Virus record (IMG/VR): IMGVR_UViG_3300043424_000608
Coordinates: 1 to 37,247 of that record
Direction: 5' to 3' (one strand)
Source of the DNA: a virus
Length of the DNA stretch: 37,247 nt
Shown one piece after another: positions 1,101 to 31,322 of the stretch. Within the stretch, counting starts at the first letter, position 1. Each line of letters opens with the position of its first letter. The position numbers and the translations under genes were made by a program. The notes beneath the pieces are model-generated. The model saw only the letters and a program-made list of their open reading frames with translations. It did no database searches and was not told the origin of the DNA.

Positions 1101-1108
1101 TGTAAGTA
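1101..1108 (+). promoter_or_regulatory. TGTAAATA-family promoter motif (TGTAAGTA)
   Basis: AGTGTAAGTA ends 7 nt before the ATG at 1116. It matches the element found before other first-in-block genes of this window. The following TACTTTTG also fits the TAnnTTTG -7 element described for Bacteroidota, an alternative reading. There is no Shine-Dalgarno sequence between the motif and the ATG. Confidence 0.4.
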
Positions 1109-1115
1109 CTTTTGT

Positions 1116-1949
1116 ATGCCAGCGATTTCGTATCAAAATATTCCTTTTCGTTTAAATGTTGGGGGTACTACTACTCAAATACTAGCTCAAAACATGTCAA
1201 TCCAATATCAGACAAACTTAAGAGCTAATAGAACATTAACATCATCTCAATCAACTCAATTTGAAACATATGGAATTGATAGTGCAATGAATGCCAATAT
1301 ATCGCTTGCATTTTATGCGGATACTTCAGGTTCTGGTGCAAGATATTGTCTAGAACAATTAACAGGAGATGTTTCAGCGATTATATCAATTGGTGGTATT
1401 TCGTTTAATAGTTGTTATTTAAACAGCGCGTCAGTTAATATACAACCCTTTGCCCCAGTTATTATCAATGCCGAACTTACTTCTTATAATCCAACCACAG
1501 GAGAAACATGGGGTAAAAATAGTGCTGGGAATAATAGAACCATAACCCAAATCTCTAATGCTTCTGATTATACTAACAAAATAGTATATGGTCATACTGT
1601 TTCTATTACAAATGGAACTGGTCTTTCAGAATCATCAAGAGATTCAATTACTTATGCAGTTACTTGTGGCAGAACTCCTAGATATACTCTTGGGGACATT
1701 AATTCAGATAAAGTGTTTTTAGATACTTTAGAAAAAGAAATATCAATCAAATCAACAAACATAACAAATTTTATAAACTATACTGGTTATAATGATGCTA
1801 TATCTATTGGTTTAAAAGATGAATCAGGAAATAATGCACTGTCTTCTAATATAAATTTCTCTGCCGCGAGATTAATGGCGCAAAGTCTAACAGCTCAAGA
1901 GGGAGATACTTTAATTGCAGAAATAAAAGCAAAAGAGGTTATTTTATAA
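1116..1949 (+). CDS. Tail-tube-like structural protein, paralogue A (277 aa)
   Basis: This beta-rich, Ser/Thr/Asn-rich protein resembles the tail-tube-like proteins encoded at 14916-16040, 28336-29121 and 30056-31300. Its N-terminal half has the same layout: a QNMSIQYQ segment at about 24-31 (compare VQNLSFGLQN in the 30056 gene), an LAFYADT strand, then a CYLNSASVNIQPFAPVIINAEL stretch at about 100-121 that is a weaker version of the YLxxY...VGxIPxV signature. I infer a virion tail or tube-related role. The frame is open upstream to an ATG at 948, but I chose the ATG at 1116: the extension would run through C-rich, operator-like DNA and would read oddly (Lys/Pro/Ile-rich), while phage-like codon use begins at 1116 and a promoter motif lies just before it. 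It ends 34 nt before phoH. Its placement far from the other tail genes is unusual. Confidence 0.6.
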   Translation: MPAISYQNIPFRLNVGGTTTQILAQNMSIQYQTNLRANRTLTSSQSTQFETYGIDSAMNANISLAFYADTSGSGARYCLEQLTGDVSAIISIGGISFNSCYLNSASVNIQPFAPVIINAELTSYNPTTGETWGKNSAGNNRTITQISNASDYTNKIVYGHTVSITNGTGLSESSRDSITYAVTCGRTPRYTLGDINSDKVFLDTLEKEISIKSTNITNFINYTGYNDAISIGLKDESGNNALSSNINFSAARLMAQSLTAQEGDTLIAEIKAKEVIL

Positions 1950-1956
1950 TTAAAAT
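1941..1956. other. AT-rich hairpin at the end of the 1116 gene
   Basis: ATTTTA-TAAT-TAAAAT is a perfect 6-bp inverted repeat that overlaps the stop codon and lies about 12 nt before the promoter-like motif at 1969. Similar AT hairpins precede the motif at 7949-7965 and 16064-16080. It is weak as a terminator and may simply mark a transcription-unit boundary. Confidence 0.3.
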
Positions 1957-1968
1957 ACCCCCATTTAG

Positions 1969-1976
1969 TGTAAATA
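1969..1976 (+). promoter_or_regulatory. TGTAAATA promoter motif before phoH
   Basis: TTTAGTGTAAATA ends 7 nt before the phoH ATG (1984). It is one transition away from the T4 late promoter TATAAATA. No Shine-Dalgarno sequence lies between them. TATATTTG at 1974-1981 also fits the Bacteroidota TAnnTTTG element. Confidence 0.5.
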
Positions 1977-1983
1977 TATTTGA

Positions 1984-2712: not shown

Positions 2713-2788
2713 ATAAAATCAGACAAGACCTGCCAAAGCGCACAGCTAAATGTAATTGCAAAAAAATAAGGGCGGTTGTATCTTGTCT
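2708..2788 (+). promoter_or_regulatory. TGTAAATA motif and long-loop inverted repeat between phoH and the next gene
   Basis: An exact TGTAAATA (2708-2715) overlaps the phoH stop. It is followed by AGACAAGA (2721-2728) and its reverse complement TCTTGTCT (2781-2788), 52 nt apart, and then by a CTTTTTG run. The roughly 100-nt gap 2713-2814 has no frame of note and is less AT-rich than its surroundings. It could be a 5' leader for the 2815 gene, a terminator or a small RNA; none is proven. Confidence 0.3.
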
Positions 2789-2814
2789 ACTTTTTGTCCC
2801 CACAAGCCTAAGCC

Positions 2815-3081
2815 ATGACTCAAAAAACCAAAACTACAATTACAGAAGCTGCAACCGCATTAAAATGGGTCTTACCAATACTTTTCGGAATTGTTATTTT
2901 GTGGCTTAATAGTAGATATGCAACAGTTGAGGCTTTTGATGTTTTAGAAAATAAAGTTTTAACAATAGAGTCATTAAATAAAGAAAATGGGGCTGATTTA
3001 AATAAAAAAATAGAAATAATTAACACAAAGCTTGAATATATACTAACGGACGTTAAAGAAATTAAACAAAAAGTCAAATGA
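2815..3081 (+). CDS. Small protein with one membrane helix and a coiled coil (88 aa)
   Basis: The 88-residue product has a short N-terminal segment, one clear hydrophobic helix at about 18-32 (WVLPILFGIVILWLN), then a heptad-like C-terminal region (about 40-88) rich in Glu/Lys/Leu/Ile that should form a coiled coil. This layout fits a membrane-anchored protein such as an i-spanin or another small lysis or envelope protein, but there is no diagnostic motif, no holin partner and no endolysin next to it, so I leave the function open. It starts at ATG 2815 after a 102-nt gap, and its stop overlaps the ATG of the next gene (ATGA), so the two are probably translationally coupled. Confidence 0.7.
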   Translation: MTQKTKTTITEAATALKWVLPILFGIVILWLNSRYATVEAFDVLENKVLTIESLNKENGADLNKKIEIINTKLEYILTDVKEIKQKVK

Positions 3082-3437
3082 GTCAAATATTCTGTTCAAG
3101 CTGCGGGACCAAACATCAATATACATACTCTCAACCAAAATTCTGTTCCAACTGTGGTCAGTCTTTTGGAGCTTCTTTCTTGCCACCAAAAAAGCAAGTA
3201 ACTAGCGCCAAGTATGATATTGATGAAGAGGATGAAGAAGACGATGGTGAAAACACTAACGTTCAACATGTTCCTAATATTCGAAATCTACAAGTAGACA
3301 TCGAAAAAGAAGAGGGAAATAATCAATTTACTCTTGGTTCTTTATTTGGTCAAGGTAATGCGGGTGTTTCGAGGAGGAGTCGCCGTTCCAAAACGGTAGA
3401 TGATTTTATTAGCGAAAAATCTACCAGTGGGGAATAA
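3078..3437 (+). CDS. Zinc-ribbon protein with acidic linker (119 aa)
   Basis: Two CxxC knuckles, CSSCG at residues 6-10 and CSNCG at 23-27, form a small N-terminal zinc ribbon. A very acidic low-complexity stretch (DIDEEDEEDDGEN, about 47-59) and a polar tail with a basic patch (VSRRSRRSK) follow. Such proteins are often nucleic-acid or RNA-polymerase binding. Its position directly before a sigma-like gene, overlapping it by 38 nt, hints at a transcriptional partner, but that is inference. The start codon overlaps the stop of the upstream gene (ATGA). Confidence 0.72.
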   Translation: MSQIFCSSCGTKHQYTYSQPKFCSNCGQSFGASFLPPKKQVTSAKYDIDEEDEEDDGENTNVQHVPNIRNLQVDIEKEEGNNQFTLGSLFGQGNAGVSRRSRRSKTVDDFISEKSTSGE

Positions 3438-4116
3438 AAAATATAAATATGAAGATTATTCCGATGTCATTGATGCTACTATAAGAAAGTTTAGGTCTAA
3501 GTGGCAATTAAATGCAATCAATTGGTTTGATTTCTCTGACGTAGAGCAGATTATTAAGATTCACATCCACAAAAAGTGGGATATGTGGGATCAATCACTT
3601 CCTCTTGAGCCTTGGATAGCAAGAATAGCTTCTAATCAAATTAAAAACATAATTAGAAACAATTATACTAATTATGTTAAACCTTGTATGCAGTGCAAGT
3701 TTAACATGGGTGACAACCTCTGTTCTTGGACTCGTAGTGGCAATCAAAATGCAACTTGCGATATGTATGCAAAATGGTCAAAGCAAAAGAAAGCGGGGTA
3801 TGGAATTAAACTACCTGTTGCTTTAGAAAATCATTTAAAAGAAATAGATTCCCAGCCAGACACATCAATTCATTTTGATTCGGCAATAGAAAGATTAAAC
3901 GAATTATTAAAACTTAAATTAAGTAAAGAACATTATACTGTCTACATAATGTTATTTTTCGAAGAAAAGCCTGAAGAAGAGGTTGCTAAGTTCATGGGTT
4001 ATAAAACAAATGAAAAAAACAGAAAAGCTGGATATAAGCAAATAAAAAATCTTAAAAAAATGCTTAGGGAAAAAGCTGAAGAAATAATTAGAGAGAATGA
4101 TATTATAATAGAATAA
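3400..4116 (+). CDS. Sigma-70-family-like factor with Cys4 insert (238 aa)
   Basis: Residues about 44-92 look like sigma70 region 2: FSDVEQIIKIHIHKKWDMWD, then PLEPWIARIASNQIKNIIR, the usual core-binding and -10-recognition helices. Immediately after it lies a candidate zinc site with Cys96, Cys99, Cys108 and Cys120 (CMQC...C...C). Residues about 170-225 form a helical region 4-like helix-turn-helix (LSKEHYTVYIML to QIKNLKKML). It probably directs host RNA polymerase to phage promoters, as gp55 does in T4; the TGTAAATA motifs of this window are candidate targets. The chosen ATG at 3400 overlaps the previous gene by 38 nt; a GTG at 3427 is an alternative start. No clear Shine-Dalgarno sequence is seen. 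The family call is by pattern only. Confidence 0.7.
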   Translation: MILLAKNLPVGNKKYKYEDYSDVIDATIRKFRSKWQLNAINWFDFSDVEQIIKIHIHKKWDMWDQSLPLEPWIARIASNQIKNIIRNNYTNYVKPCMQCKFNMGDNLCSWTRSGNQNATCDMYAKWSKQKKAGYGIKLPVALENHLKEIDSQPDTSIHFDSAIERLNELLKLKLSKEHYTVYIMLFFEEKPEEEVAKFMGYKTNEKNRKAGYKQIKNLKKMLREKAEEIIRENDIIIE

Positions 4117-4118
4117 CA

Positions 4119-6096: not shown

Positions 6097-7952
6097 GTTG
6101 GGAAGCTGGTAATCAAAAATTAAATAAAAAATTTAAAAACATTAATCAAGAGATACTTGATACAAAAGGTTTTATTGACGAGAAGAAAGCTAAAATTTTA
6201 TTATATAAATTTTTAAAAGAAAACCCATCTTTCTCTTCTGAATTAATCACAGGTGTTTCATTATTCCCGTTCCAGCATATGGCAATTAAAGCTATGATGG
6301 AAACTGATTACTTTTTGGGTATCTGGTCCCGTGGTATGAGTAAATCTTTCTCTACTGCAATCTTTGCTATTCTAGATGCGATTTTAAATCAAGGCGTACA
6401 TATTGGAATCATTAGTAAATCATTCAGGCAGTCTAAAATGATTTTCCGTAAGATTGAAGAGATTTCTCGTAGTCCTAAAGCTGGATTCCTTTCTCAATGC
6501 ATTAATAGAATATCAAAAACAAATGATGAATGGGTAATTGAAATTGGTAGAAGCAAGATAACAGCCCTGCCACTTGGCGATGGTGAAAAACTCCGTGGTT
6601 TCCGTTTCCAGAGAATGATTATTGACGAGCTTCTTCTGATGCCAGAAAAGATTTTAAATGAAGTTATTCTTCCATTCCTTTCTGTTGTAGAAAACCCAAC
6701 TGAAAGACAAAAGCTTTATGATTTAGAAACCACTTTGATTCAACAGGGTAAGATGTCTGAAGAAGAGCGTTATAGATGGCCAAATAACAAAATTATTGGA
6801 TTATCTTCAGCGAGTTATAAATTCGAATATCTTTATAAACTATATCAACAATATGAATCATTAATTTTCAATAATGCTGAAAAAGATAATGCTCATAGAG
6901 TTATTATGCATTTTAGTTATGACTGTGCGCCAGATCAGCTTTATGATCAAAACTTAATTAATCAAGCTAAAGCTACAATGAGTCAGTCTCAGTTTGATCG
7001 TGAGTTTGGTGCTGTATTTACTGATGATAGCTCTGGTTACTTTAAGGTAAGCAAAATGGCGCTTTGTACCATACCTGATGGAGAAGGTCAAAGCGTAGAG
7101 GTTGTGGGCGATCCTACAGCTCAATATATACTAGCATTTGACCCGTCTTGGTCAGAAAGTGAAGGGTCTGACGACTTCTCCATGCAATTATTAAAAATTA
7201 ATCCAGAAAAAAGAAATGGAACAGTAGTTCATAGCTATGCCCTTTCTGGAACTAATTTGAAAAAGCATATTGAGTATATGCATTATTTATTAACTCATTT
7301 TAATGTTGTTTCGATTGTAGGTGACTATAACGGAGGCGTTCAGTTTATTAACTCTTGTAATGAGAGTGAAATATTTAAAAAGGCTGGAATTAAATTAGAT
7401 ATGTTTGATGCCGATTTCGATAATCCGCAAGAATATGATAAAGCTTTGAGAGATGCAAGAAATCAATATAATATATCTACTAGAAAAATCGTTCACTTAA
7501 GAAAACCAAGTTCTGCTTGGATTAGATACGCCAATGAATCGTTACAGGCAGCATTTGATCACAAGAGAATATGGTTTGCTGGAGCGGCAATGGACGAAGC
7601 TTATAATAAACAAAGGTTAGCTAATATACCAATTCAAACATTAAAATTCTCAAGGCATGATGATGAAAAAGAATCTGGCGCTAGACAAATTGATTTTATT
7701 GAACAATTAAAAGACAATATTGAACTTATTAAAGTACAATGCGCACTTATTCAAGTAAATACTTCAGCTCAAGGTACGCAAAGTTTTGACTTACCAATGA
7801 ACTTAAAAAAGCAAAGGGGGGCTGATAAAGCAAGAAAAGACTCTTATTCTACGTTAGTTTTAGGCAACTGGATGATGCAGACTTATTTTGATATGATTAA
7901 CCTTCAAGAGCAAAATATTCAAGCTACATTCGTCCCAATGTTTATTAATTAA
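6093..7952 (+). CDS. terL: Terminase large subunit
   Basis: A 619-residue packaging ATPase-nuclease. The ATPase has a Walker A-like SRGMSKS at residues 79-85 (compare T4 gp17 SRQLGKT), a Walker B MIIDE at 175-179 with the catalytic Glu, and a coupling motif IGLSSASYK near 235. The RNase H-like nuclease has Asp350 (FDPSWS), Asp411 (VGDYNGG) and Asp534 (RQIDF) as candidate metal ligands. It pumps DNA into proheads through the portal and cuts concatemers. The start overlaps the ERCC4-nuclease stop (ATGA), with AAGGA about 9 nt upstream as a ribosome site. An AT palindrome sits on its stop codon (7949-7965), and the portal gene follows after 46 nt with its own promoter-like motif. Length and motif order are normal for T4-like terminases. 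Confidence 0.93.
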   Translation: MSWEAGNQKLNKKFKNINQEILDTKGFIDEKKAKILLYKFLKENPSFSSELITGVSLFPFQHMAIKAMMETDYFLGIWSRGMSKSFSTAIFAILDAILNQGVHIGIISKSFRQSKMIFRKIEEISRSPKAGFLSQCINRISKTNDEWVIEIGRSKITALPLGDGEKLRGFRFQRMIIDELLLMPEKILNEVILPFLSVVENPTERQKLYDLETTLIQQGKMSEEERYRWPNNKIIGLSSASYKFEYLYKLYQQYESLIFNNAEKDNAHRVIMHFSYDCAPDQLYDQNLINQAKATMSQSQFDREFGAVFTDDSSGYFKVSKMALCTIPDGEGQSVEVVGDPTAQYILAFDPSWSESEGSDDFSMQLLKINPEKRNGTVVHSYALSGTNLKKHIEYMHYLLTHFNVVSIVGDYNGGVQFINSCNESEIFKKAGIKLDMFDADFDNPQEYDKALRDARNQYNISTRKIVHLRKPSSAWIRYANESLQAAFDHKRIWFAGAAMDEAYNKQRLANIPIQTLKFSRHDDEKESGARQIDFIEQLKDNIELIKVQCALIQVNTSAQGTQSFDLPMNLKKQRGADKARKDSYSTLVLGNWMMQTYFDMINLQEQNIQATFVPMFIN

Positions 7953-7965
7953 CTTTTAAAGTTAA
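7949..7965. other. AT palindrome between terL and portal
   Basis: TTAACTTT-T-AAAGTTAA is a perfect inverted repeat covering the terL stop and is followed by CTTTTTG. As RNA it gives at most a 7-bp, AT-only stem with a 3-nt loop: a weak terminator or an operator. It lies 16 nt before the promoter-like motif at 7982. Confidence 0.35.
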
Positions 7966-7981
7966 CTTTTTGACATTTCGG

Positions 7982-7990
7982 TGTAAAATA
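7982..7990 (+). promoter_or_regulatory. TGTAAAATA promoter motif before portal
   Basis: CGGTGTAAAATA ends 8 nt before the portal ATG (7999). It belongs to the TGTAAATA family. A weak GTGAAAG lies between the motif and the start. It marks the first gene after the terL-portal gap. Confidence 0.5.
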
Positions 7991-7998
7991 GTGAAAGT

Positions 7999-10011
7999 AT
8001 GAGCGGCTCAAAAAGACAGTATAATAAAAAATCAGATTATTGGACTAAATTTAAAAAGGTAGAGACTTCCATAAGTAATGTCATACCACAAACACAAAAT
8101 TATGAGCCGCAGTTATGTGGTGAGCCATTTTATGTATCAGATGCTACAGCAAATACTAAAGAATTGATTTTTAGTAAAGCTTCCTATTCTCGTAGAAGCG
8201 GAGAAAGTCCTACTGGTTCTAGAAAAAATGTATCTGCGATGACTCCAACCACAGATAGGTTTGGGAGTATTAGAAATGGTTTGCTTCCATATAATTACGC
8301 TATGGATGGCGTTAATGTTCGTGAAGCTATTGAACTTTGTCAAAAGGCTTATGCTAATGTTGCTGTTTTTAGAAACGCTATAGATATCATGTCTGAGTTT
8401 GCTAATACGGAAATTTATCTTGAAGGTGGTACTCAAAAAAGTAGAGAATTTTTTACAGAATGGTTTAAAAAGATTAAATTATGGAACTTAAGCGACCAAT
8501 ATTTTAGAGAATATTATAGAAGCGGCAATATCTTTTTATATAGAGTTGATGGCAAGTTTAAAACAGATGATTTTGCCAAATTAGTTAATCAAATTGGTAT
8601 CTTGGGCAATAATAAAATACCACTTAAGTATATTTTACTTAATCCTTTTGATATTGTCGCAAAGAGAAGCTCTACTTTTGCCGTTGGCGCATACGAAAAG
8701 ATTTTATCAGAATATGAATTAGCTAGATTGCAAAATCCAGTTACAGAAGAAGATAAGGAAATTTTAGATGCAATGCCACCTTCTGTTAAAAAAGATATTA
8801 AAAAGGGGGCATATTATACAGATGGATTAAAGATTGAACTTGATCCAAAAAGATTAACTTATTCATTTTATAAAAAACAAGATTACGAACCATTTGCGGT
8901 TCCATTCGGATATCCAGTTCTTGAGGATATCAACGCCAAAATGGAACTTAAGAAAATGGATCAAGCAATTACCCGTACCGTAGAAAATGTTATTTTGTTA
9001 ATTACTATGGGCGCTGAACCAGATAAAGGCGGCATTAATGCTCAAAACTTATCTGCAATGCAAAGTTTATTTAAAAACGAAAGCGTTGGAAGAGTATTGG
9101 TTTCAGACTATACAACAAAAGCAGAATTTGTTATACCAGATTTAGGAAAAGTTTTAGGTTCTGAAAAATATAAAGTCTTAAATGAAGATATTAAACAAGG
9201 TCTTCAAAACATTGTTATTGGTGAAGAAAAATATAGCGCTACAGAAGTTAAAGCTCAAATATTTATTGATAGATTGAAAGAATCTAGAAATGCATTCTTA
9301 AATGATTTCTTACAAGTCGAAATTAATAGAATAGCTAAAGAATTAGGATTTAGATCGTTTCCAACAGCAAAGTTTAGAGATATTGATATGAGAGATCAAA
9401 CTCAACTTATGCGCATTACAACAAGGCTTATGGAGCTTGGTGTTCTTACTCCACAACAAGGTATGGATATGTTCCATACTGGTCAATTCCCAAAAGCAAA
9501 AGATATTTCGCCAGCGCAAAATACATTTAATGAAGAGAGAAAAGATGGTTACTATAATCCACTAGTTGGCGGTGTTCCATTAATTTCTCCAGGTGGAGAT
9601 GGTGAACAACAAGTTCAAACAACTACTACTAATAAAATGGCTGGAAGACCAGAAGGTACAACTGGAATTCCTTTAGTAAAAGGAAATTATTCAGTAAAAG
9701 ATATTCAATCAGTAGTAAATAAAATTGAAAAAACACGCGCTACTATTTCAACTAGTTTAAAGAAAAAACTTAATATCAAGAAGTTTAATGAACAACAACA
9801 AGATATGTTGAATAAGTTATGTGAAGCTGTTGTAGTTTCAGGTGATATAGAAACTTGGGAATCAATAGCAAATTCTTGTGTAAATAATTTTGATAATATC
9901 GCTTCATTAAATACTATGCCAGATATTTTATCTATATTGGCAGAACATCAATTAGAAGATGATTACTCAGCAGCAATTTTATACCATTCTCAAAAAATAA
10001 ATGAAAATTAA
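7999..10011 (+). CDS. Portal protein (670 aa)
   Basis: Position directly after the large terminase, length and fold pattern mark it as the portal: an N-terminal segment with NVREAIELCQKAYANVAVFRNAIDIM (about 107-132) leading into wing strands, a long helical and beta centre containing KYILLNPFDIV (about 210-220), stem helices around 310-335, and a C-terminal crown with Gly/Gln-rich linkers (QQVQTTTTNK near 540) and a helical tail. The portal forms the dodecameric ring at one capsid vertex, is the docking site for the terminase and conducts DNA. No catalytic motif is expected. The N-terminus is basic and polar. The stop overlaps the next gene by 11 nt. I am confident of the role from context and general pattern rather than a single diagnostic motif. 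Confidence 0.82.
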   Translation: MSGSKRQYNKKSDYWTKFKKVETSISNVIPQTQNYEPQLCGEPFYVSDATANTKELIFSKASYSRRSGESPTGSRKNVSAMTPTTDRFGSIRNGLLPYNYAMDGVNVREAIELCQKAYANVAVFRNAIDIMSEFANTEIYLEGGTQKSREFFTEWFKKIKLWNLSDQYFREYYRSGNIFLYRVDGKFKTDDFAKLVNQIGILGNNKIPLKYILLNPFDIVAKRSSTFAVGAYEKILSEYELARLQNPVTEEDKEILDAMPPSVKKDIKKGAYYTDGLKIELDPKRLTYSFYKKQDYEPFAVPFGYPVLEDINAKMELKKMDQAITRTVENVILLITMGAEPDKGGINAQNLSAMQSLFKNESVGRVLVSDYTTKAEFVIPDLGKVLGSEKYKVLNEDIKQGLQNIVIGEEKYSATEVKAQIFIDRLKESRNAFLNDFLQVEINRIAKELGFRSFPTAKFRDIDMRDQTQLMRITTRLMELGVLTPQQGMDMFHTGQFPKAKDISPAQNTFNEERKDGYYNPLVGGVPLISPGGDGEQQVQTTTTNKMAGRPEGTTGIPLVKGNYSVKDIQSVVNKIEKTRATISTSLKKKLNIKKFNEQQQDMLNKLCEAVVVSGDIETWESIANSCVNNFDNIASLNTMPDILSILAEHQLEDDYSAAILYHSQKINEN

Positions 10012-10417: not shown

Positions 10418-10426
10418 TTTTTAAAT

Positions 10427-12001: not shown

Positions 12002-12035
12002 TAAATAAAAAAAAACAATCTAACAAACAAAATAT

Positions 12036-12671: not shown

Positions 12672-12700
12672 TTTAACCCCTTAATAAAAGAAGAAAAACT

Positions 12701-13822
12701 ATGAAAATTACTTTAAAAAGAACTCCAGAACAAGTCGAGTTAATTAAGGCTATGGCTTCAAAGAACCGTGCGGTTGCAGTTGAAGCTCAGGTTGCACTTG
12801 CTGAATTCATCGGACCAGTATTGGCTGAGGTTATCAACAACGCTCCTACCCTTAGTAACTTATTCACAAGCCTTCAGTTTAATGCTGATGACAATCCAAG
12901 CATTCCGCTTGATCTCTATTATGATATCACAGCTGAAGACTATATCACCGTTTACAGCCAAAGCGTAGCTGGTGGTCTTCCACAGAACCAAGTTCTCCCA
13001 ACTGTTTCTGAAATGAAGATCGCTACATATACTCTTGACTCAGCACTTAGCTTTGACAAGCGTTATGCTGCTAAGAGCCGCATGGATGTAGTTAGCAAGA
13101 CCTTTACTCGCATGGCTCAAGAAATCCTTCTTAAGCAAGAGAAGACCTCTGCTAACCTTATCCTTAGCGCACTCGCTGCTGCTCAAACAAATGGTAAGCA
13201 ACACGTACAACGCTCCAATACAAGTGGTCGTTTCCTTCTTGCTGACCTCAACGAACTCTTCACTCTTTCCAAGAGAATCAATACCTCATGGCTCAAGGGA
13301 ACTCCAGAAGCACGTGGTGGACGTGGTATCACTGACCTCATTGTTTCTCCAGAAGTTGTTCAAGAGCTTCGTGCAATGGCTTACAATCCAATCAACACTG
13401 TTGGAAGCAACACCGATATCCCAGCTACCGACGAAATGAGAACAGCTGTCTATAACAACGCAGGTATTCCTGAGTTTTATGGAGTTGCTATCATGGAAAT
13501 CAATGAGCTTGGCCGTGGTCAGCGTTTCAACACAATCTTTGATAACGTTTCTTCACAAACCTATTCAACTGCTGCTGGTGGTAATCCTGGTGCATTCAAT
13601 GGTGCTAATGAAGAAATTATCATTGGTCTTGACCGTGGACGTGAGTCTCTCATCCGTGCAGTTGCCGTTGATTCTGAGAATGGTTCTGAATTCAGCCTTA
13701 CTGCTGATGACCAGTACAGCATCCGTCAGAATAAGATCGGTTACTTCGGTTCACTTGAAGAAGGACGTATGGTTCTCGACAATCGCGCTCTCGTTGGCAA
13801 GATTGTTTCTGGCCTCGCTTAA
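12701..13822 (+). CDS. Major capsid protein, HK97-type (373 aa)
   Basis: Size, position after protease/scaffold and decoration genes, and the fold pattern support the major capsid protein: an N-terminal helix (TPEQVELIKAMASKNRAVAVEAQVALAEF), an extended-loop region around 60-115 (TAEDYITVYSQSVAGGLPQNQVLPTVSEM), the long spine helix around 125-165 (SRMDVVSKTFTRMAQEILLKQEKTSANLIL), and a domain with GITDLIVSPEVVQELRAM near 205-222. Codon use is distinct from most of the window: Arg is mainly CGT/CGC instead of AGA and many codons end in C, as expected of the most abundant protein. AGAAGAAAAACT before the ATG is a weak ribosome site. A strong terminator (13840-13872) follows. Confidence 0.87.
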   Translation: MKITLKRTPEQVELIKAMASKNRAVAVEAQVALAEFIGPVLAEVINNAPTLSNLFTSLQFNADDNPSIPLDLYYDITAEDYITVYSQSVAGGLPQNQVLPTVSEMKIATYTLDSALSFDKRYAAKSRMDVVSKTFTRMAQEILLKQEKTSANLILSALAAAQTNGKQHVQRSNTSGRFLLADLNELFTLSKRINTSWLKGTPEARGGRGITDLIVSPEVVQELRAMAYNPINTVGSNTDIPATDEMRTAVYNNAGIPEFYGVAIMEINELGRGQRFNTIFDNVSSQTYSTAAGGNPGAFNGANEEIIIGLDRGRESLIRAVAVDSENGSEFSLTADDQYSIRQNKIGYFGSLEEGRMVLDNRALVGKIVSGLA

Positions 13823-13839
13823 TTCAAGCTATAAATTTA

Positions 13840-13872
13840 AGAGTCACCCTGAAAGGGGTGACTCTTTTTTTT
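13840..13872 (+). terminator. Strong intrinsic terminator after the capsid gene
   Basis: A perfect 10-bp stem AGAGTCACCC / GGGTGACTCT (13840-13849 and 13856-13865) with a 6-nt loop tgaaag is followed directly by eight T. It lies 18 nt after the capsid stop and ends the head operon transcript. Confidence 0.93.
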
Positions 13873-13893
13873 GTTTAAATTTCCAGTATTAAC

Positions 13894-13905
13894 AGTATAA
13901 TATAA
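13894..13905 (+). promoter_or_regulatory. Promoter-like AGTATAATATAA after the terminator
   Basis: AGTATAATATAA ends one base before the ATG at 13907. It aligns with AGTGTAATATAA at 14359-14370, differing only at G to A, and contains a perfect TATAAT. It restarts transcription after the capsid terminator if active. Confidence 0.4.
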
Positions 13906-14359: not shown

Positions 14360-14360
14360 G

Positions 14361-14369
14361 TGTAATATA
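14361..14369 (+). promoter_or_regulatory. TGTAATATA promoter motif before the adaptor gene
   Basis: TTTAAGTGTAATATA ends 4 nt before the ATG at 14374. The motif begins just beyond the stop codon of the previous gene. No Shine-Dalgarno sequence fits in the remaining space. Confidence 0.45.
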
Positions 14370-14373
14370 AAGT

Positions 14374-14835
14374 ATGAGTGTAATTGCGGACTTATCTTTA
14401 AAAATATTTCAGACAGAATTTGATAGTGATACTGGCATTATGCCACGTTCTCATATCTCAGGATGGTTAGATGCTAACCTTGGACAATTAAATACATTAT
14501 TAAATACTTCTTATAGTGGTTCAGATGCAGAGCTTGATTTAGAATCTCAAGCTATTTATAAAGAGCTATATTTAGCTAGTTATTATAGAAAGCAATCTAG
14601 AAACGCATTAAGAGGCTTGATTGATGCTAATGGTGGTGGGGGTGACATATTAAGTCTTAATGATGGCAATAGTTCAGTTACTTTCACTAATAAAAATGAA
14701 GTTGCAAAAGTTTATAAAAGCATGGCTGATAATGCTGAAACACGCTTAAATCAACTTGTTGCAAAATATAATATATATCAATCACAACCACTTCAATTAG
14801 GCGGTATTGAAACTAATTTAGATATTTATTATTAA
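14374..14835 (+). CDS. Head-tail adaptor / connector candidate (153 aa)
   Basis: The product is a compact helical protein: LSLKIFQTEFDSDTGIMPRSHISGWLDANLGQLNTLL at the N-terminus, a long helix through residues 50-80 (LDLESQAIYKELYLASYYRKQSRNAL) and another at about 110-135. This resembles the small all-helical adaptor proteins (gp6/gp15 type) that sit below the portal. Position supports it: capsid gene upstream, and stopper, neck and tail genes in the next block. It converges with the minus-strand tail-tube gene across a bidirectional terminator. The call is from pattern and synteny, not a single motif. Confidence 0.6.
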   Translation: MSVIADLSLKIFQTEFDSDTGIMPRSHISGWLDANLGQLNTLLNTSYSGSDAELDLESQAIYKELYLASYYRKQSRNALRGLIDANGGGGDILSLNDGNSSVTFTNKNEVAKVYKSMADNAETRLNQLVAKYNIYQSQPLQLGGIETNLDIYY

Positions 14836-14859: not shown

Positions 14860-14890
14860 AAAAAGAGGCTGATTTCTCAGCCTCTTTTTA
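14860..14890. terminator. Bidirectional terminator between convergent genes
   Basis: AGAGGCTGA (14864-14872) pairs with TCAGCCTCT (14877-14885) around a 4-nt loop. It is flanked by A tracts on the left and T tracts on the right, so each strand has a hairpin followed by a U-run. It ends both the adaptor transcript (+) and the tail-tube transcript (-). Confidence 0.92.
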
Positions 14891-14915: not shown

Positions 14916-16040
14916 TTAAAGATAAACTGTTATTCCACTATAACTACCGCTCATTTGAATACCATTTGTAGTATCATTAGCACCACCAATTTGAGTACTA
15001 AATGTGATGTCTGCTGTTTTGTTAGCTCCAATAGAACTTGAATAACTAATAGAGTCAATTTGAGCATTTTTCATTGTATATCTTACAGCAGGTATACTGT
15101 TGCCACCAGGTTTGTTAACTGTAATTGTAATGTCATTTTTTGGATTAGCTTCCACTAAATCAACAAGACTACCATTTTCAGAGTCAGCTTGAACACCATT
15201 AACAGTAAGAGTTGCTGTAATTGGGAAGTCAACAGTGCGAACGAATGCATATTTTGAACCAAGTCTTTCAATTGGAGAGCGTCCAAGAGGAAGTGAAAGA
15301 CTTGCACTTTGTAAATGAAGACCTGAAATATCTGCACCAATACCACTATTACCTATATTACCGAAACTAATCGTAACATCTCCTGGTCGTAAGGCATTAA
15401 CAATAGTAGTTCCTGTTTGACTATTTGGCTTACTAAAAGAGATTACTGGTGTTAATTTTGTACCTTTTTCTTGATCAATACCAGCGCTTGAGCAACCAGT
15501 TGCTTGACCAGCAGAACCAGTGCCAGGAACAGTGAATGCGTTCATGTTAGAACCTTCCACTGAAACTGAAACAGTTGGAATATTTCCTACTGATAAATCA
15601 ACAGTATAGTCAGTAAGATAAGCGTTACCAATACCAATTACTGATTTACCACTTAAATTTGTTGTAGATGCATTTAAGTCATTTCCTTCGTCTGTGGTTA
15701 CAATGTAAAAGTTTTGACCACTTCCATCTATTAATTGTCCAGATGGAAATTGGCTTTGAGTTTGAGTAGATCCAGTTGGAACATAGAATCCAAGAGCCGA
15801 TTCATTAGCTCCATCTGTTAAATAATATGAAAAGTCAAGTGAAACTGTTGGAGATTCAAGAACAATTGAGTCAATACGGGCCAATTCACCGAATTGGTTA
15901 ATATCTTGACGAGCAATGTTAAAATTATAGTTTGCACTTTGTACTCTGTCTAATTGATAGTGTTCACCAGTTGTTGTTGAAGCAGCTGATTTACTAACAT
16001 AAAGACCTTCTGATTGATAAATTACTCTGTTTCTAGGCAT
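14916..16040 (-). CDS. Major tail tube protein candidate, paralogue B (374 aa)
   Basis: This beta-rich protein is the likely tail tube subunit: it is last in a minus-strand block with stopper, neck and tail-completion candidates. It shows clear similarity to the distal tail protein at 30056-31300. VQSANYNFNIARQDINQFG (33-51) matches VQNLSFGLQNDRQKLKQVG, SPTVSLDFSYYLTDGANESA (63-82) matches SPDINLNINYYLTPYLHNEL, and YLTDY (141-145) followed by VGNIPTV (151-157) and Met166 repeats the same spacing. A second shared block is GSKYAFVRTVDFPITAT near 272. Tube subunits stack as hexamers around the DNA channel. The gene is on the opposite strand to the flanking morphogenesis genes. Two Cys-free ends and no enzyme motif are seen. 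Confidence 0.7.
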   Translation of the reverse strand: MPRNRVIYQSEGLYVSKSAASTTTGEHYQLDRVQSANYNFNIARQDINQFGELARIDSIVLESPTVSLDFSYYLTDGANESALGFYVPTGSTQTQSQFPSGQLIDGSGQNFYIVTTDEGNDLNASTTNLSGKSVIGIGNAYLTDYTVDLSVGNIPTVSVSVEGSNMNAFTVPGTGSAGQATGCSSAGIDQEKGTKLTPVISFSKPNSQTGTTIVNALRPGDVTISFGNIGNSGIGADISGLHLQSASLSLPLGRSPIERLGSKYAFVRTVDFPITATLTVNGVQADSENGSLVDLVEANPKNDITITVNKPGGNSIPAVRYTMKNAQIDSISYSSSIGANKTADITFSTQIGGANDTTNGIQMSGSYSGITVYL

Positions 16041-17518: not shown

Positions 17519-17976
17519 TATTCATCAATTGGTGTTAGAAAGAATTCGTAGTATTGATTTGAAAATAATCCCATTGGATTACCATCGCTTCTAATTGAAA
17601 AGGTTATTCCATCAAATTCTACTTTTCTAGCTTCTTTAATATAATTATAACCATCTGGATCTACAATGATTTTAACAGAGCCTTGAGGCATTATAATTTT
17701 ATTTTGAGAGCCTTTATTAGAGGAACTATCAGCAAAATGTTCTTCTTCTAATTTTAAATAATAAATTCTCGCCATAAATGTAGAAGATACTGTTTCATAT
17801 TCTACGCTTGTAGTAGCTCCAGCATTTCCATAAATTGAATTATATTGTGGAGAGCTGGATATAGCTATCTTTTTGGCATTTTTATATACTGTGATTTCTC
17901 TAGAGAATGTATCATGTAAATCAGCAAGGGCTGAGATTACTTTATTTTGTCTAGATAAATTAATTAAGCTTGGCAT
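17518..17976 (-). CDS. Head closure / stopper candidate (152 aa)
   Basis: First gene of the minus-strand tail block. The 152-residue product begins with a helix (LINLSRQNKVISALADLHDTFSREITVYKNA) and continues as a beta-rich domain (SSTFMARIYYLKLEEEHF; IIMPQGSVKIIVDPDGYNYI; KVEFDGITFSIRSDGNPMGL), the normal size and strand content of head-closure proteins of the SPP1 gp16 type. It has its own promoter-like motif GTGTAAATTT just upstream, and its stop overlaps the next ATG. Function is inferred from order and size. Confidence 0.5.
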   Translation of the reverse strand: MPSLINLSRQNKVISALADLHDTFSREITVYKNAKKIAISSSPQYNSIYGNAGATTSVEYETVSSTFMARIYYLKLEEEHFADSSSNKGSQNKIIMPQGSVKIIVDPDGYNYIKEARKVEFDGITFSIRSDGNPMGLFSNQYYEFFLTPIDE

Positions 17977-17981
17977 ATTGA

Positions 17982-17989
17982 AATTTACA
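17982..17989 (-). promoter_or_regulatory. TGTAAATT promoter motif for the inverted tail block
   Basis: On the minus strand AAAAAAGTGTAAATT ends 5 nt before the ATG at 17976. It is the only family member on the minus strand with a clear GTGTAAA core and close start codon, and it sits exactly in front of the inverted four-gene block. Confidence 0.5.
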
Positions 17990-18021
17990 CTTTTTTATTT
18001 ATTATTTATTAAGGTATAAGG

Positions 18022-18326: not shown

Positions 18327-19082
18327 ATGGAATTCAAGGAATTATATAGTTTCACAGTCGATAAGGAAGTAGAGAAAACAATTGAATCTACTAAAAAGGA
18401 TAAGAAAACGGGGGAAGAAATCACTACCAAGAAAAAGGTAAAGGAAAAAGTACCCGTTTCAATTCGTTTAAAAAGACCTTCACGCAGAGAATTGGAAGAA
18501 GCTGAATTAGAGTTCAGTGTTGAAATGAGTCGCTGCGTTAAGAAGGGTATTTTAACAAAAGCCATGCTTGCTAAAAAGTATAGTGATACTGGTGGTTTAA
18601 TGAGTGAAGATGCTGCTGGTTCATTAGTTGATGCTTATAAAAAGATCTTTGATTTGCAAAATGAATATTCTCGCCTTGAAATTGTTCAAGATAAATCTGA
18701 TAAACAAAAGGCTAGAGTTGAAGAGATTACAAAAGAACTCGCCACAACTCGCCGCGAAATTGTAGAATTTGAATCAAACTATCAATCTCTTTTTGATCAC
18801 ACTGCTGATGTTAAAGCTCAAAATCGTTTGATTTTATGGTATGTTATCATGCTTACTTATATTCAAGAAGAAGAAGATGAAAACCCAAAACCATATTTTG
18901 GACAAGGTGATTTCGATGAAAAGATTGAAGAGTATTATAAAAGAGAAGAATCGGATGATAGTCTTTATTTCTTAATTACTAAGAAAGCTGCAACTATTTT
19001 AGCTTTCTGGTTCTTCAATCAAGCTTCTGACAAACAATCATTTGATGGTTTAATGGAGAAACTTGAAAAGAATGAAGTGTGA
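18327..19082 (+). CDS. Tail assembly chaperone candidate 1 (251 aa)
   Basis: The 251-residue product has a Lys-rich start (FTVDKEVEKTIESTKKDKKTGEEITTKKKVKEKVPVSIRLKRPSRRELEEAELEF) followed by a mainly helical, acidic body with coiled-coil character (about 105-160) and an aromatic C-terminal part (LITKKAATILAFWFFNQASDKQ). It is followed by a coupled gene and then the tape measure gene, the standard place for tail chaperones. Its stop overlaps the next gene's start as GTGA. The next frame is -1 relative to this one, which would permit a lambda G/GT-like fusion, but no convincing slippery heptamer is seen near the junction. Confidence 0.55.
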   Translation: MEFKELYSFTVDKEVEKTIESTKKDKKTGEEITTKKKVKEKVPVSIRLKRPSRRELEEAELEFSVEMSRCVKKGILTKAMLAKKYSDTGGLMSEDAAGSLVDAYKKIFDLQNEYSRLEIVQDKSDKQKARVEEITKELATTRREIVEFESNYQSLFDHTADVKAQNRLILWYVIMLTYIQEEEDENPKPYFGQGDFDEKIEEYYKREESDDSLYFLITKKAATILAFWFFNQASDKQSFDGLMEKLEKNEV

Positions 19083-20065: not shown

Positions 20066-20076
20066 TATTTTTTATG

Positions 20077-20085
20077 TGTAAATAT
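20077..20085 (+). promoter_or_regulatory. TGTAAATAT promoter motif before the tape measure gene
   Basis: TTTATGTGTAAATATTCC lies 17 nt before the ATG at 20103, with an AAGGAATAAGG ribosome site in between. This is the one strong family member with a normal leader and Shine-Dalgarno sequence. Confidence 0.5.
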
Positions 20086-20102
20086 TCCTAAAGGAATAAG
20101 GA

Positions 20103-23100
20103 ATGCCACTACAATTACCAGTAATTCAAACAGGATTAGAAGCGAGTATTCAACAAGCAATGAGAAATGCTGGGCGTAATGCTCAGATTAATCTTGGAAC
20201 TAATAGCCGTCAGATTAATGCGCTTGCACAACCGCTTGGAAGAATTACTGGTCAGGCTGACGAATTCACAAAATCAATGGAAGCTGCAAATGCTCGTGTA
20301 TTTGCTTTCGGTGCTTCAGTTGGTATTATTAATGGAGTAACTAAAGCATTTGGAGCATTAGTTAGAAATACAATTGAGGTTGAAAAATCTCTTGTAGAAA
20401 TTAATACAGTTTTAAATGCTAGTAGTGATTCATTGCAACAATTTGGTAATAAGCTTTTTGATGTTGCTAAAACTACTGGTCAAACTTTTGATACTGTTGC
20501 TAAAGGTGCATTAGAACTTGCTAGACAGGGTTTAAGTACAGAAGAAACTTTAAAAAGAATTAATGATGCACTTATTCTTTCAAGACTTTCTGGTTTAGAT
20601 GCACAACAATCTGTTGAAGGTTTAACTGCAGCGTTTAACTCGTTTAAAGAGACGGGAATTACAACATCTCAAATTCTCAATAAATTAGTTGTTGTTTCTC
20701 AAAAATATTCTGTTTCAGAAAGAGATTTAATTGAAGGTCTTAAAAGATCTGCGTCTGTTGCGGATCAAGCTGGTGTTTCTTTTGATGAATTAGTTGGTAT
20801 TATTACAACTGTTCAAGAAAGAACTGCTCGTGGTGGTGCTGTTATTGGTAACGCATTTAAAACAATTTTTGCTCGTATACAAGATACTGGAGCATTAGAA
20901 GATTTACGTAGTTATGGTATAGTAGTTGACGATGTAAAAGGAAAAATTTTACCAGCTACAAAAATTTTACAAAATTTAGGCACAGAGTTTAATAATTTAA
21001 GTCAACTAGAACAAGCTGATCTTGCTAAAAAACTTGGTGGTGTTTATCAGTTATCAAACTTATTAGCCGCAGTTAAAGATTTATCAAGTGAACAGTCTAA
21101 GTATGTTGATATTGTTAAACTTTCAGCTGGGGCAACTGATGAAGCTTATAAGAAAAATGCTGCATTAAACGAAACCCTTGCTACTTTAATTAATAAAGTT
21201 ACTCTTAGCGCACAACAACTTGGTGCAACTTTAGGAGAAATTGGTATTACTGATGGTTTAAAGAAAGTATTAGATTTTGTTAATAGTATTTTTGAAGGTT
21301 TCCAAAAAATACTTGGAGAAGAAAGTGCATTGGGAACTTTTTTTAAAGGATTAGTAAAAGGAATTGGAAATGTTTTAGCTGGTCCTGGTTTAGCAATATT
21401 TGCAGCTATCATTGGAAAACTTTCTATACAATTAGCTGGGTTTGGTATTGATGCTTTAAAATCCTTTTTCAAAATTAATCAATCTGCAAAAGAAATTCAA
21501 AATATTGAAAAATCAATTGCTACCGCTTTAGGTAGTAACTTAGGTTTACAAAGACAACTTTTTGCTTTAGAAGGAAATCGCGCTGCTCAACTTAAGTTAA
21601 TGACTGATGCTATTGTTCAGCAAGAAGCTGTAATGCGTAGAATGTCTGCTACAGCTGGGTCATTAGCTGGATCACTATATCAACAAGGAGTAAGATCAGT
21701 TGGCGGTCAAGGATTAAGAGTTCCTAAAGCAGCTGGTGGTTATATGCCAGCGGTTGCTGGAGAAGCTTCAGATATTCGTCGTGGTGTTGGTGGGGCAAAA
21801 GCTGGTGACAAACCAGTAGTAATTCCAAATTTCGCATTTGGTGGCGGCAAGAAAGGAACTATGGTTGCTCATACTGGTGAGTATATTGTTCCTAATTTTG
21901 CAAGAGGTGGGTCAGCCATCTTTAATAGAGATATGATCGCATCAATGGGTCTTCCATCTGGTGCTAAAAAGATTGGTGCTGCTGGAGGATTTATACCTAA
22001 TTTTGCTGAATGGTATGATAGTTCAACTAAAAAAGTAGTAACTTCAACAGATTATCCAAAAACTCCAGGGAATTGGACAAAAATTGCCAGTAATTCCCAA
22101 ACCTATAGAAAATATGCAGATACTTTAGAAAATTATAAACTCCCTAATGTTGACTTTTATCTGTTCCCAGATGGAACAGGTGGTCGCGGAGCTACAGTTA
22201 GAGGCGCTCTTGGTAGAAGTAAATCTAAAGCAGTTGAGAATATTGAAAAACAACAGCAAAAAGTTGAAAAATCTGGGTTTTTTAATTTAAATGCAGATCA
22301 GCTAGGTGGAATTCTTCTTGTTTCGCCTAGATTTGGTAAAGGAGTCGGTAGTTTAGATACATCAATGCAAATTGCAGAAATACCGATCTTTAATCAAGGC
22401 AAATTCCAAGTTGATAAAAATAAATATATTAATTTAAAAGGAGTTAAGACATCTAATACTCCAAGCGGAAGAGATTTACAAGGATTACAGGGAGATATAA
22501 GTCAATTATTCGCAGGTGGAATTGTAGATCTTGCTTATAGATTATATGGAAGCACTTTTGATCCAGCAAGCGCTGGAGAGTTTACTCAAAAATTAAAATC
22601 TTTAGATAGTTCAAATAAACAACAATTAATACCACAGGCTGCACAAGGAGATTTATTTGAGGCTGCTGGTAAAGTTGCCCTTAATAGTTTTAGCAATTTA
22701 GAATCTTTATTTGGTTCTGCAGAACAAAATAGACCGTTTGATTTTCAAAATCCAGCTGCATTACAAAAAATGTTTGGAGTTAGTGTTTTAAGAGGGGAGG
22801 CGAAAAGAGGGGGAGAAAAAAACTTTTCGTCATCCAAACAAGTATCTGGTATTATTAAGAAAGTTTTTAATGATCCAGAATATTCTCCAAAAGCATTAGA
22901 CGCTTTAAAAGCTCAGGGAGCTTTTAGTCCAGAGATGCAAAAACAGAAAAAAGAAGAAGAAATCTCTAATGCTGTAAGTGGTTTTATTCCTAATTTTGTA
23001 AGTCAAAAATATATATTAAATACTCTTGCTAGAATAAAAGCTGGCACAAGTGGCTTTTCAAAACAAGAACAAGAGACATTCTTAAATAAATTTGGTGCAA

Positions 23101-28334: not shown

Positions 28335-28335
28335 T

Positions 28336-29121: not shown

Positions 29122-30059
29122 GTACTTTTTACAATAGAGATAGAAACATTAGTGTAATCAGCCCGATTTCATCTTTAACATATGATCCAGTTTATGGTTC
29201 TAGAGTTTCTTTTAGCTCTATGTCTAATATGTATTTTACTAGAGACGGTTATTTTAATTTAATACCACTTTCTCCTAATAGTTTGTCAGCAGAATATGAA
29301 TTAAGATATGATTTAAATGAACTTGATTCTCAAAAACTTATTGATTTTATTGAAAGTAAAAATGGGGAAGATTTTATTGAATTTACTGATTCATCTAGTT
29401 TTTATAAAAAGTTAAGTGGGTTTTCTGATAGTTACGCAGTTAATCACATTAATAAGGGTCATTATGAAGTCGCAATTAAAATAAATATAGATAGAGCGCC
29501 AACATTATTAAATTGGTCTGGAATGACTTTTATTAATACAACATTTCAAAATTGGACAACTAAAAAAGCTTACGAAAAATATGATATTATTTATTCAGGA
29601 ATAAGTACAAATAAATTAAATAATTATTATTATTGTACAGAAAATCATACATCATCTTCAGCTTCTGCTGATGGGCCAACAGGCTCTTCATCTAAATGGA
29701 CTCAAAATTTCTTTTTTGAACCAGATTTAGGATTGCAAAATAATGTTGATTTAAAAGTGGATAAAATTAATTTCAGAAACTCATTTCCACAAAGAATAAA
29801 AACTGAAAAAAATATAGCAAAAACAGACTTTAATTATAAATTTACTAATATAACTACTAAAAAAGCAAAAGCTATTATGCACTTTTTAGAAAATAAAGGT
29901 GGATATAGAAGATTTTTACATTATCCACCTTCTATTTATAATAGACCAAAAGTTTTTTATTCACCAAGCTGGAATCACACTTGGAAATATAATAATTCAC
30001 ACGATATTGAAGTTAATTTAATTGAAGACCCATTAGGAATAATACCAACAGGATCATGA
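29118..30059 (+). CDS. Minor tail protein with duplicated domain (313 aa)
   Basis: The 313-residue protein seems to contain two copies of one domain: residues about 58-122 (YDLNELDSQKLIDFIESKNG to NHINKGHYEVAIKI) and about 238-305 (FTNITTKKAKAIMHFLENKG to NNSHDIEVNLIE), sharing a helix, a 'FlexxxG' turn, aromatic residues and a final beta strand. The C-terminal copy with FYSPSWNHTW resembles lambda gpM-like minor tail proteins. Residues 106-113 contain the octapeptide YAVNHINK, also found at 56-63 of the next gene's product. It is coupled to both neighbours by ATGA overlaps. A role in the tail tip is likely. Confidence 0.62.
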   Translation: MSTFYNRDRNISVISPISSLTYDPVYGSRVSFSSMSNMYFTRDGYFNLIPLSPNSLSAEYELRYDLNELDSQKLIDFIESKNGEDFIEFTDSSSFYKKLSGFSDSYAVNHINKGHYEVAIKINIDRAPTLLNWSGMTFINTTFQNWTTKKAYEKYDIIYSGISTNKLNNYYYCTENHTSSSASADGPTGSSSKWTQNFFFEPDLGLQNNVDLKVDKINFRNSFPQRIKTEKNIAKTDFNYKFTNITTKKAKAIMHFLENKGGYRRFLHYPPSIYNRPKVFYSPSWNHTWKYNNSHDIEVNLIEDPLGIIPTGS

Positions 30060-31300
30060 ATAGAAAGATATTAAAAAGCGATGGGGCATTTGTTTTAATT
30101 GGAGATTCTCCTTCTTGGAAAACTTCAAGTGAAACAGGTAGACTTTTTTCATTGGTGCAAAATTTATCTTTTGGTTTACAAAATGATAGACAAAAATTAA
30201 AACAAGTCGGTTATGAAAACTATGCAGTTAATCATATTAATAAATCCCCAGATATTAATTTAAATATTAATTATTATTTAACTCCTTATTTACATAATGA
30301 ATTACAGCTTGGTTTTAATTTAGCTTATTCTTCTGACGAAGCTTTTTCTATAAAAGAATTTAGATCTAATAGAATTAATACACTTTTAGATGAATCTATA
30401 ACAGATGGTGATGATAATTTTACTTCTAATAATTTTTATGTTATAATAGATAATAATCAATTAAGGGATGCAATTACAGAAGCAGAGAAAACTTCTCCAG
30501 CTAGTGTTAATTTTAGTGGTTTTGATGTTGTTTCATTTGGTAACTGTTATTTAACAAATTATCAACTTTCATATTCAGTTGGATCAATACCTACTGTATC
30601 TACATCATATTTATGTTCAAATATGAAATTTGACAATTTAACTGGAAATGTGTTAACCATTCCAGCAATTAATCCAGTTAGTGGTAATTCAAATAATGCT
30701 GGAACATTAAATTTGTCAAGTACGATAAAATCTATTTTAACTGGAGATTTTGGATATAATAATGTTAAAGCATCTAATTTACCAGTTGCAACACATAGAA
30801 CCTCAACCTTTACCCTACAAGATTTGCAATGTGGTGGTGTGGCATTAAAATCAAACAGTAATCCAATTTTACAAAATTTAAATATTAATTTAGATTTCAC
30901 AAGAACTAATTTATATGGATTTGGCAGCAATTATCCATTTGATAGAAAATTAGAATTTCCAGTAAATGCGACTGTTGAATTACAAGCTTTGGTTTCTGGC
31001 GTTTCTTCTGGTTTTATAAGTGGTATGATGACTAATGAATCTAATTATAGATTTAATATATCTTTTTCAGAGGTTACACCAAACAAAGTAGATCCAACAA
31101 TTGGCTATATTACAATTGAAAATGCAAAATTAGAAAATTTTAATTATTCAATGTCAGTTAATGATATTATGAATTTTTCCGCATCTTTTTCTGTTGAGCT
31201 GTCTAATGATAAGAATTTTTACTTTGGTAGAGCAATGGAATCAGATCGTTGGAGAGATGTTAAAGATTTATGGTCTGTGTCTAATATTACTTGGCAATAA
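30056..31300 (+). CDS. Distal tail protein, tube-like paralogue D (414 aa)
   Basis: This 414-residue protein is the closest paralogue of the tail-tube candidate (14916-16040). VQNLSFGLQNDRQKLKQVG (34-52), SPDINLNINYYLT (64-76), YLTNY (165-169), VGSIPTV (175-181) and Met190 align with equal internal spacing, and GSNYPFDRKLEFPVNAT later matches GSKYAFVRTVDFPITAT. It therefore probably adopts a tube-like, double beta-sandwich fold and sits at the distal end of the tail. It also shares YAVNHINK with the preceding protein. The start overlaps that gene by 4 nt. The next gene, the fibre, has its own promoter-like motif, so this is the last gene of the tail operon. Confidence 0.65.
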   Translation: MNRKILKSDGAFVLIGDSPSWKTSSETGRLFSLVQNLSFGLQNDRQKLKQVGYENYAVNHINKSPDINLNINYYLTPYLHNELQLGFNLAYSSDEAFSIKEFRSNRINTLLDESITDGDDNFTSNNFYVIIDNNQLRDAITEAEKTSPASVNFSGFDVVSFGNCYLTNYQLSYSVGSIPTVSTSYLCSNMKFDNLTGNVLTIPAINPVSGNSNNAGTLNLSSTIKSILTGDFGYNNVKASNLPVATHRTSTFTLQDLQCGGVALKSNSNPILQNLNINLDFTRTNLYGFGSNYPFDRKLEFPVNATVELQALVSGVSSGFISGMMTNESNYRFNISFSEVTPNKVDPTIGYITIENAKLENFNYSMSVNDIMNFSASFSVELSNDKNFYFGRAMESDRWRDVKDLWSVSNITWQ

Positions 31301-31312
31301 AAACTTAAAAAG

Positions 31313-31322
31313 TGTAATAATA
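31313..31322 (+). promoter_or_regulatory. TGTAATAATA promoter motif before the fibre gene
   Basis: TTAAAAAGTGTAATAATA ends 4 nt before the fibre ATG (31327). No Shine-Dalgarno sequence fits in the space left. Confidence 0.45.

Follow-up and report, generated by a model that had tools for sequence, protein, structure and literature searches.

The hexamer GTGTAA, followed by A or T, is found close upstream of a set of start codons in an uncultured phage family represented by an IMG/VR record of 37,247 bases (the window, which is the whole stretch of DNA analysed; the record is classed as linear and is probably a fragment). This element is probably a phage-specific promoter consisting of a single -10 element, read by the host RNA polymerase together with a phage sigma factor, used mainly for late genes and giving rise to leaderless mRNAs. 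A preliminary description of the window had proposed a late-type promoter, specific to the phage and giving near-leaderless transcripts, and this proposal, with use mostly by late genes, is well supported by footprints, a near-fixed spacing of 8 nt, a dependence of the Shine-Dalgarno sequence on that spacing, the classes of genes concerned and the presence of two sigma-like genes.

The window encodes PhoH, an ERCC4-type nuclease, the large terminase subunit (TerL), the tape measure protein, minor tail proteins, a single-stranded DNA-binding protein (SSB) and a nucleotide kinase. A single scan of IMG/VR yielded 228 relatives of TerL, 80 of which, with 72-100% identity, were retained; every match in the annotated phage collection had less than 60% identity. 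G001 (112 kb) and G002 (134 kb), two relatives with long sequences, have a gene order in common with the window; genes were called in them by a crude ATG-first procedure, and these long records may be incomplete. GTGTAA is also present in the most divergent full-length relative, the TerL of which is 65% identical. TerL relatives in genome contigs were found in Flavobacteriaceae, Verrucomicrobiales and unassigned metagenome bins (one weak match in Paenibacillus is not reliable), and no WhiB was found in 12 records.

The preliminary description had called for a de novo motif search, and the two unbiased searches made in the window, G001 and G002 (6-mer counting and expectation maximization, EM) both ranked GTGTAA top before starts. 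In the 6-mer search, 39 of 120 GTGTAA copies lay no more than 25 nt ahead of a called start, a 27-fold enrichment (p ~3e-44); about two thirds of the copies in the analysed genomes lie outside such upstream regions. The best motif of the EM search, run without a preset motif, was.aaGTGTAAa.a (11.7 bits), in 40 of the 181 regions upstream of starts with an intergenic gap of at least 18 nt. The earlier statement that the element marks most transcription units suits the window, which is rich in late genes, but not the three genomes taken together. An ATG follows at 7-10 nt for a share of 0.247 of GTGTAA copies, the highest among its 90 anagrams (median 0.069), and the share is 0.12 or less for the single-base neighbours, which are near background except for GTGTAT. 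GTGTAA plus a following A or T, and not TGTAAATA, forms the conserved core: the octamer, first put forward as the consensus, is not enriched in the window, where 85 occurrences with at most one mismatch compare with 91.5 expected. A logo of 41 sites showed no -35 element (no position preceding the core exceeded 0.36 bits), and a single-block EM search of the starts without GTGTAA gave no clear second motif.

The two strands of the window contain 17 copies of GTGTAA, of which seven precede a start on the same strand by no more than 25 nt (binomial P = 3.6e-10, computed for 33 starts, each with an upstream zone of 25 nt). Elements had been reported before the ATGs at 1116, 1984, 7999, 14374, 17976 (minus strand), 20103 and 31327, and GTGTAA is present at each of these positions. 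The sites are given below, the gap being the number of nucleotides from the end of GTGTAA to the ATG; the orthologous starts counted belong to related sequences and hence do not represent independent events.

1100..1105, plus strand: GTGTAA before the ATG at 1116; gap 10; kept at 17 of 20 distinct orthologous starts, with a gap of 8-10
1968..1973, plus strand: GTGTAA before the ATG at 1984 (PhoH); gap 10; kept at 16 of 18 orthologous starts
7981..7986, plus strand: GTGTAA before the ATG at 7999; gap 12; kept at 34 of 38 orthologous starts
14360..14365, plus strand: GTGTAA before the ATG at 14374; gap 8; kept at 46 of 46 orthologous starts, with a gap of 8 in 42
17985..17990, minus strand: GTGTAA before the ATG at 17976; gap 8; kept at 33 of 35 orthologous starts, with a gap of 8 in 31
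20076..20081, plus strand: GTGTAA before the tape measure ATG at 20103; gap 21; within 30 nt at 48 of 50 orthologous starts
31312..31317, plus strand: GTGTAA before the ATG at 31327; gap 9; kept at 8 of 9 orthologous starts

The element had been described as close to the start codon, which is correct, but the distances given (4-8 nt, and 17 nt at 20103) become 8-12 and 21 nt when measured from the end of GTGTAA. The hexamer is kept at orthologous starts even where protein identity drops to 25-70%. The gene at 7999 is the large gene after TerL, in the portal position, and the four of its 38 orthologues without GTGTAA have GTGTATAA instead. The absence of the element at overlapping starts, noticed in the window, extends to the relatives, in which GTGTAA occurs in 2 of 505 regions upstream of genes not led by the motif, both at 18327; the genes without GTGTAA upstream include those at 3078, 3400, 4119, 5158, 6093, 10001, 10427, 12036, 12701, 16941 (minus), 17518 (minus) and 19079. 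The Bacteroidota element TAnnTTTG, suggested as an alternative for 1116 and 1984, is not supported: it is present there in the window but lost in most relatives, while GTGTAA stays, and the other promoters of the phage family are of the TTGACA-17-TAnnnT type.

The gap to the ATG has a sharp peak at 8 nt, and its values cluster by gene: 8 for 14374 and 17976 (minus), 9-10 for 1116 and PhoH, and 9-15 for 7999. Upstream regions with a short gap contain a Shine-Dalgarno 4-mer in 5 of 157 cases, versus about 17 expected from shuffled sequences. At the tape measure gene, where the gap is about 21 nt, the ribosome site is present throughout.

20090..20102, plus strand: AAAGGAATAAGGA, a Shine-Dalgarno stretch within the longer leader predicted for 20103; all 50 relatives have a Shine-Dalgarno 4-mer

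The short-gap sites combine a putative -10 element within about 10 nt of the ATG with the near absence of a Shine-Dalgarno sequence, the arrangement expected of promoters of leaderless transcripts. If transcription starts about 7-9 nt downstream of the promoter element, the short-gap group would be leaderless and the tape measure mRNA would have a ribosome site within a leader of some 13-15 nt.

Among the genes led by GTGTAA are those for virion structural proteins, minor tail proteins and a CHAP endolysin, as well as one whose product weakly matches tail fibre assembly families; the late timing of the element is suggested by these functions. GTGTAA also leads NrdB, PhoH, an HNH protein and a ClpB-like ATPase, and not every user of the element is, therefore, a classic late gene. 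Many virion and lysis proteins of this phage family are predicted to be made from leaderless mRNAs.

A second promoter class, of host type, was found in a two-block sigma70 scan. TTGACA-N16-18-TAnnnT with a score of 10/12 or better precedes 17% of 134 other units (not motif-led, with a gap of at least 30 nt), versus 1.1% in shuffled sequences and 2% at internal starts, and none of the 40 motif-led starts has such a promoter. Many host-type -10 elements likewise end 7-12 nt before the ATG. The genes led by these promoters include those for a DnaB-like helicase, UvdE and HATPase-domain proteins. The features of the window relevant to this class, together with the terminators, are as follows.

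13839..13866, plus strand: intrinsic terminator after the capsid-position gene 12701-13822
13874..13901, plus strand: sigma70-type TTTAAA-N16-TATAAT before 13907
14860..14889: two-way intrinsic terminator between the converging genes 14374 (plus) and 16040 (minus)
17978..18005, plus strand: sigma70-type TTGAAA-N16-TATTAT for gene 18022, both elements being visible in most relatives shown

The site before 13907 had been considered an A-for-G variant of the motif. GTATAA is at background before ATGs (0.074 versus 0.247 for GTGTAA), and the site reads better as the sigma70-type TTTAAA-16-TATAAT, which lies just downstream of a terminator and, by inspection, is kept in several relatives. Between the divergent genes 17976 (minus) and 18022 (plus), the spacer of the plus-strand TTGAAA-N16-TATTAT encloses the GTGTAA of the minus strand, and this is so in most relatives shown.

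The phage family encodes two candidate sigma factors.

3400..4116, plus strand: sigma 1, a 238-aa sigma-factor-like protein with a region 2, a Cys-containing linker and a region 4 (PF04542, phrog_1740, structure)
35566..36135, minus strand: sigma 2, a 189-aa second sigma-factor-like protein adjoining ssb (Foldseek, PF04542 in orthologues)

PF04542 (Sigma70_r2) was detected in 28 of 28 orthologues of sigma 1 (best 1.6e-6), the copy in the window remaining below the cut-off at 0.0015. In the predicted structure of this protein (pLDDT 75), region 2 corresponds to residues 14-93 and region 4 to residues 157-237, and each superposes on known sigma domains at 2.1-2.4 A; residues 14-93 superpose on region 2 of RpoE at 2.1 A over 76 aa. 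Foldseek E-values for the whole model are modest (1.4e-3) and its TM-scores low, a different placement of the two domains being the probable reason. For sigma 2, PF04542 was found in 9 of 33 orthologues and is absent from the window copy; the protein contains KYNPNLNTKFPTYLANETRWKCLN, a stretch similar to sigma regions 2.2-2.4, and the model (pLDDT 83) matches sigma factors exclusively among the Foldseek matches listed, the best being sigma32 of 8hkc (E 2.3e-5). Both proteins thus display the sequence and fold of a sigma70-family region 2, and no alignment was found between them.

Sigma 1 is downstream of the GTGTAA site at PhoH, in an operon that also contains TerL. No GTGTAA-ATG arrangement was found in any of 47 regions upstream of sigma 2, and the sigma 2 operon of G001 and G002 begins with TTGACA-17-TATATT or TAAATT; in the 2.6 kb preceding sigma 2, only close relatives show a clear host-type promoter, any match being found in 10 of 47 regions, with 11% in shuffled sequences. 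From these promoter data and the position of sigma 1, sigma 2 seems the stronger candidate for reading GTGTAA first and sigma 1 for reading it later.

In the mechanism that we propose, the host core RNA polymerase, associated with one of the two phage sigma factors, would bind GTGTAA[A/T] without a -35 element and start transcription about 7-9 nt downstream. Where the element ends 8-10 nt before the ATG, transcription would start at or next to the start codon, resulting in a leaderless mRNA, and at the tape measure gene, with the element about 21 nt upstream, it would generate a leader carrying the Shine-Dalgarno sequence. GTGTAA would serve head and tail genes, the endolysin and some others, and host-type TTGACA-N16/17-TAnnnT many replication and other genes. 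It is conceivable, although on balance somewhat doubtful, that the two sigma factors form a cascade. Sigma 2 would be made early from a host-type promoter, co-expressed with its neighbours ssb and the nucleotide kinase, and would activate the GTGTAA promoters, including that of PhoH-sigma 1-TerL; sigma 1 would then sustain or extend late transcription. Both promoter classes would be leaderless in such a scheme, and the overlap at 17976 (minus)/18022 (plus) would act as a mutually exclusive switch.

Both sigma-like proteins have a region-4-like domain, yet no -35 element is seen, an observation that counts against reading by a phage sigma factor. Region 4 usually reads the -35 element. GTGTAA might be a variant -10 element read by the host sigma factor, perhaps with the help of a small activator from the phage; the two sigma-like proteins would then have another job. 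The distance to the ATG, similar to that of many host-type -10 elements (gaps often 7-12), would agree with this, as would GTGTATAATA, which precedes the portal-position gene in four relatives and resembles an extended -10. We nevertheless consider such a reading unlikely, given that TGTAAW has G as its second base, in contrast to the A of a host-type -10, that no -35 partner was found and that two sigma-like genes are present.

The close and nearly fixed spacing to the ATG and the lack of a Shine-Dalgarno sequence at most GTGTAA starts could also be expected of a translation-start signal in the mRNA, substituting for the Shine-Dalgarno sequence. Such a signal should also be needed at operon-internal overlapping starts, which are among the 505 starts almost devoid of GTGTAA, and at the tape measure gene the motif is about 21 nt away and accompanied by a Shine-Dalgarno sequence in all 50 relatives. 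The relationship between spacing and Shine-Dalgarno sequence is, thus, hard to explain by a translation signal, which seems highly improbable. Equally little probability is attached to the view that GTGTAA is an operator, bound by a repressor or activator of the phage and overlapping ordinary promoters: the location of the 17976 (minus) GTGTAA inside an opposite-strand host-type promoter is what such an operator would predict, but the 40 motif-led starts lack host-type promoters of 10/12 or better, and an operator would not need a near-fixed spacing to the ATG. Reading of GTGTAA as a promoter by a phage sigma factor remains the preferred explanation.

In the literature searched, the coverage of which left out most subscription papers, no earlier account of GTGTAA as a phage promoter came up. 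The element provides a rule, based on sequence only, by which putative late transcription units can be located across this large family of uncultured aquatic phages, and ties a putative new promoter element to two candidate sigma factors.

The late promoters of phage T4 resemble the proposed system in logic only, with a single element at the -10 position, a phage sigma factor (gp55) and late genes, the sigma role being a proposal in our case. If the T4 register applied here, a gap of 8 would put the start of transcription on the A of the ATG. T4 gp55 is not known to have a region 4, unlike sigma 1 and sigma 2, and hhalign detected no homology to it (probabilities of 4.7%, misaligned, and 0.1% for the two proteins). 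A T4 late promoter proper is not supported, as exact TATAAATA occurs nine times in the window and never before a called start. No gp45-type clamp (PF02916) was found above the cut-off in nine possibly partial records; one weak match, in G004, is below the cut-off and by position probably lies in a glycosyltransferase gene. A multisubunit RNA polymerase (PF00623) is absent from nine possibly partial records, and a T7-type polymerase (PF00940) was not found in a search in which the T7 control was silent as well. In mycobacteria and other bacteria, a -10 element about 7 nt before the ATG gives leaderless mRNAs; the host-type promoters of the phage family look similar too, but the family seems to have a second -10 element, of the same geometry and specific to the phages.

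Promoters read by gp47 of phage 7-11, an ECF-like phage sigma factor for late genes, have the bipartite sequence GTAAtg-16-aCTA (PMC8948821). The GTAA string recurs here, along with a candidate ECF-like phage sigma factor and late genes, but GTGTAA is a single element. The nearest known system, in logic, seems to be that of phiEco32 gp36, the middle/late promoters of which consist of tAATGTAtA alone, with no -35 element and a start 6-8 bp downstream (PMC8948821). gp36 has been reported to lack homology to region 4, and phage GAP52 has been grouped with the phiEco32-like phages (PMC8948821). No homology to gp36 was detected by hhalign (probability 0.2% for sigma 1 and sigma 2 alike), and no T4 gp55 or phiEco32 gp36 chain was among the matches listed by Foldseek and VIA-align, which excludes nothing. 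The systems differ in the element itself (GTGTAAW rather than tAATGTAtA), in the short gaps to the ATG without a Shine-Dalgarno sequence and in the presence of two sigma-like proteins here. They resemble each other in the single conserved element without a -35 and in the use, proposed for GTGTAA, of a phage sigma factor with the host core polymerase, and, among viral proteins, sigma 1 is matched best in fold by the ECF sigma factor of phage GAP52.

The left end of the window (1-187) is occupied by a G+C-rich tandem repeat, with 9.4 exact copies of the 20-bp unit GCAGGTCGGGGGCGCAGGGC. The GC content of positions 181-1115 is about 45-60%, versus 33% for the phage. This GC-rich stretch is probably real phage DNA rather than a chimera, because most of it (from about 440 on) is matched at 74% identity by a relative, L004.

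The large portal-position gene that follows TerL, at 7999 (plus strand), is preceded by GTGTAA, the proposed phage-specific promoter element, and just upstream of that element, at 7951-7969, lies the palindrome AAAGTTAACTTT, which is accompanied by another arm, AACTTTTAAA. The palindrome is kept, with variation, in nearly all relatives, and AAAGTTAACTTT is present as a single copy in the window and in each of two long relatives, G001 and G002. Upstream of gene 16040 (14916-16040, minus strand) is a conserved block of its own, AAACTGTAAACAA...AAAGAATC, which is related to the GTGTAA motif but has C in place of G and lies at a greater distance.

Sites resembling host-type promoters were found before gene 34038 (33718-34038, minus strand), within about 15 nt of the ATG: TTGACA-17-TATAGA-like in close relatives, with TTGAA-TATAAT forms instead in other relatives. 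Downstream of ssb is a glycosyltransferase gene (34072-35154; phrog_2170 match, 6e-14), which was matched in all 80 of the 80 loci around sigma 2, a sigma-factor-like gene beside ssb. Within the sigma 2 gene itself, about 107 nt ahead of ssb, TTGACA-17-TATAAT (35680-35708, minus strand) agrees with the sigma70 consensus at 12 of 12 positions.
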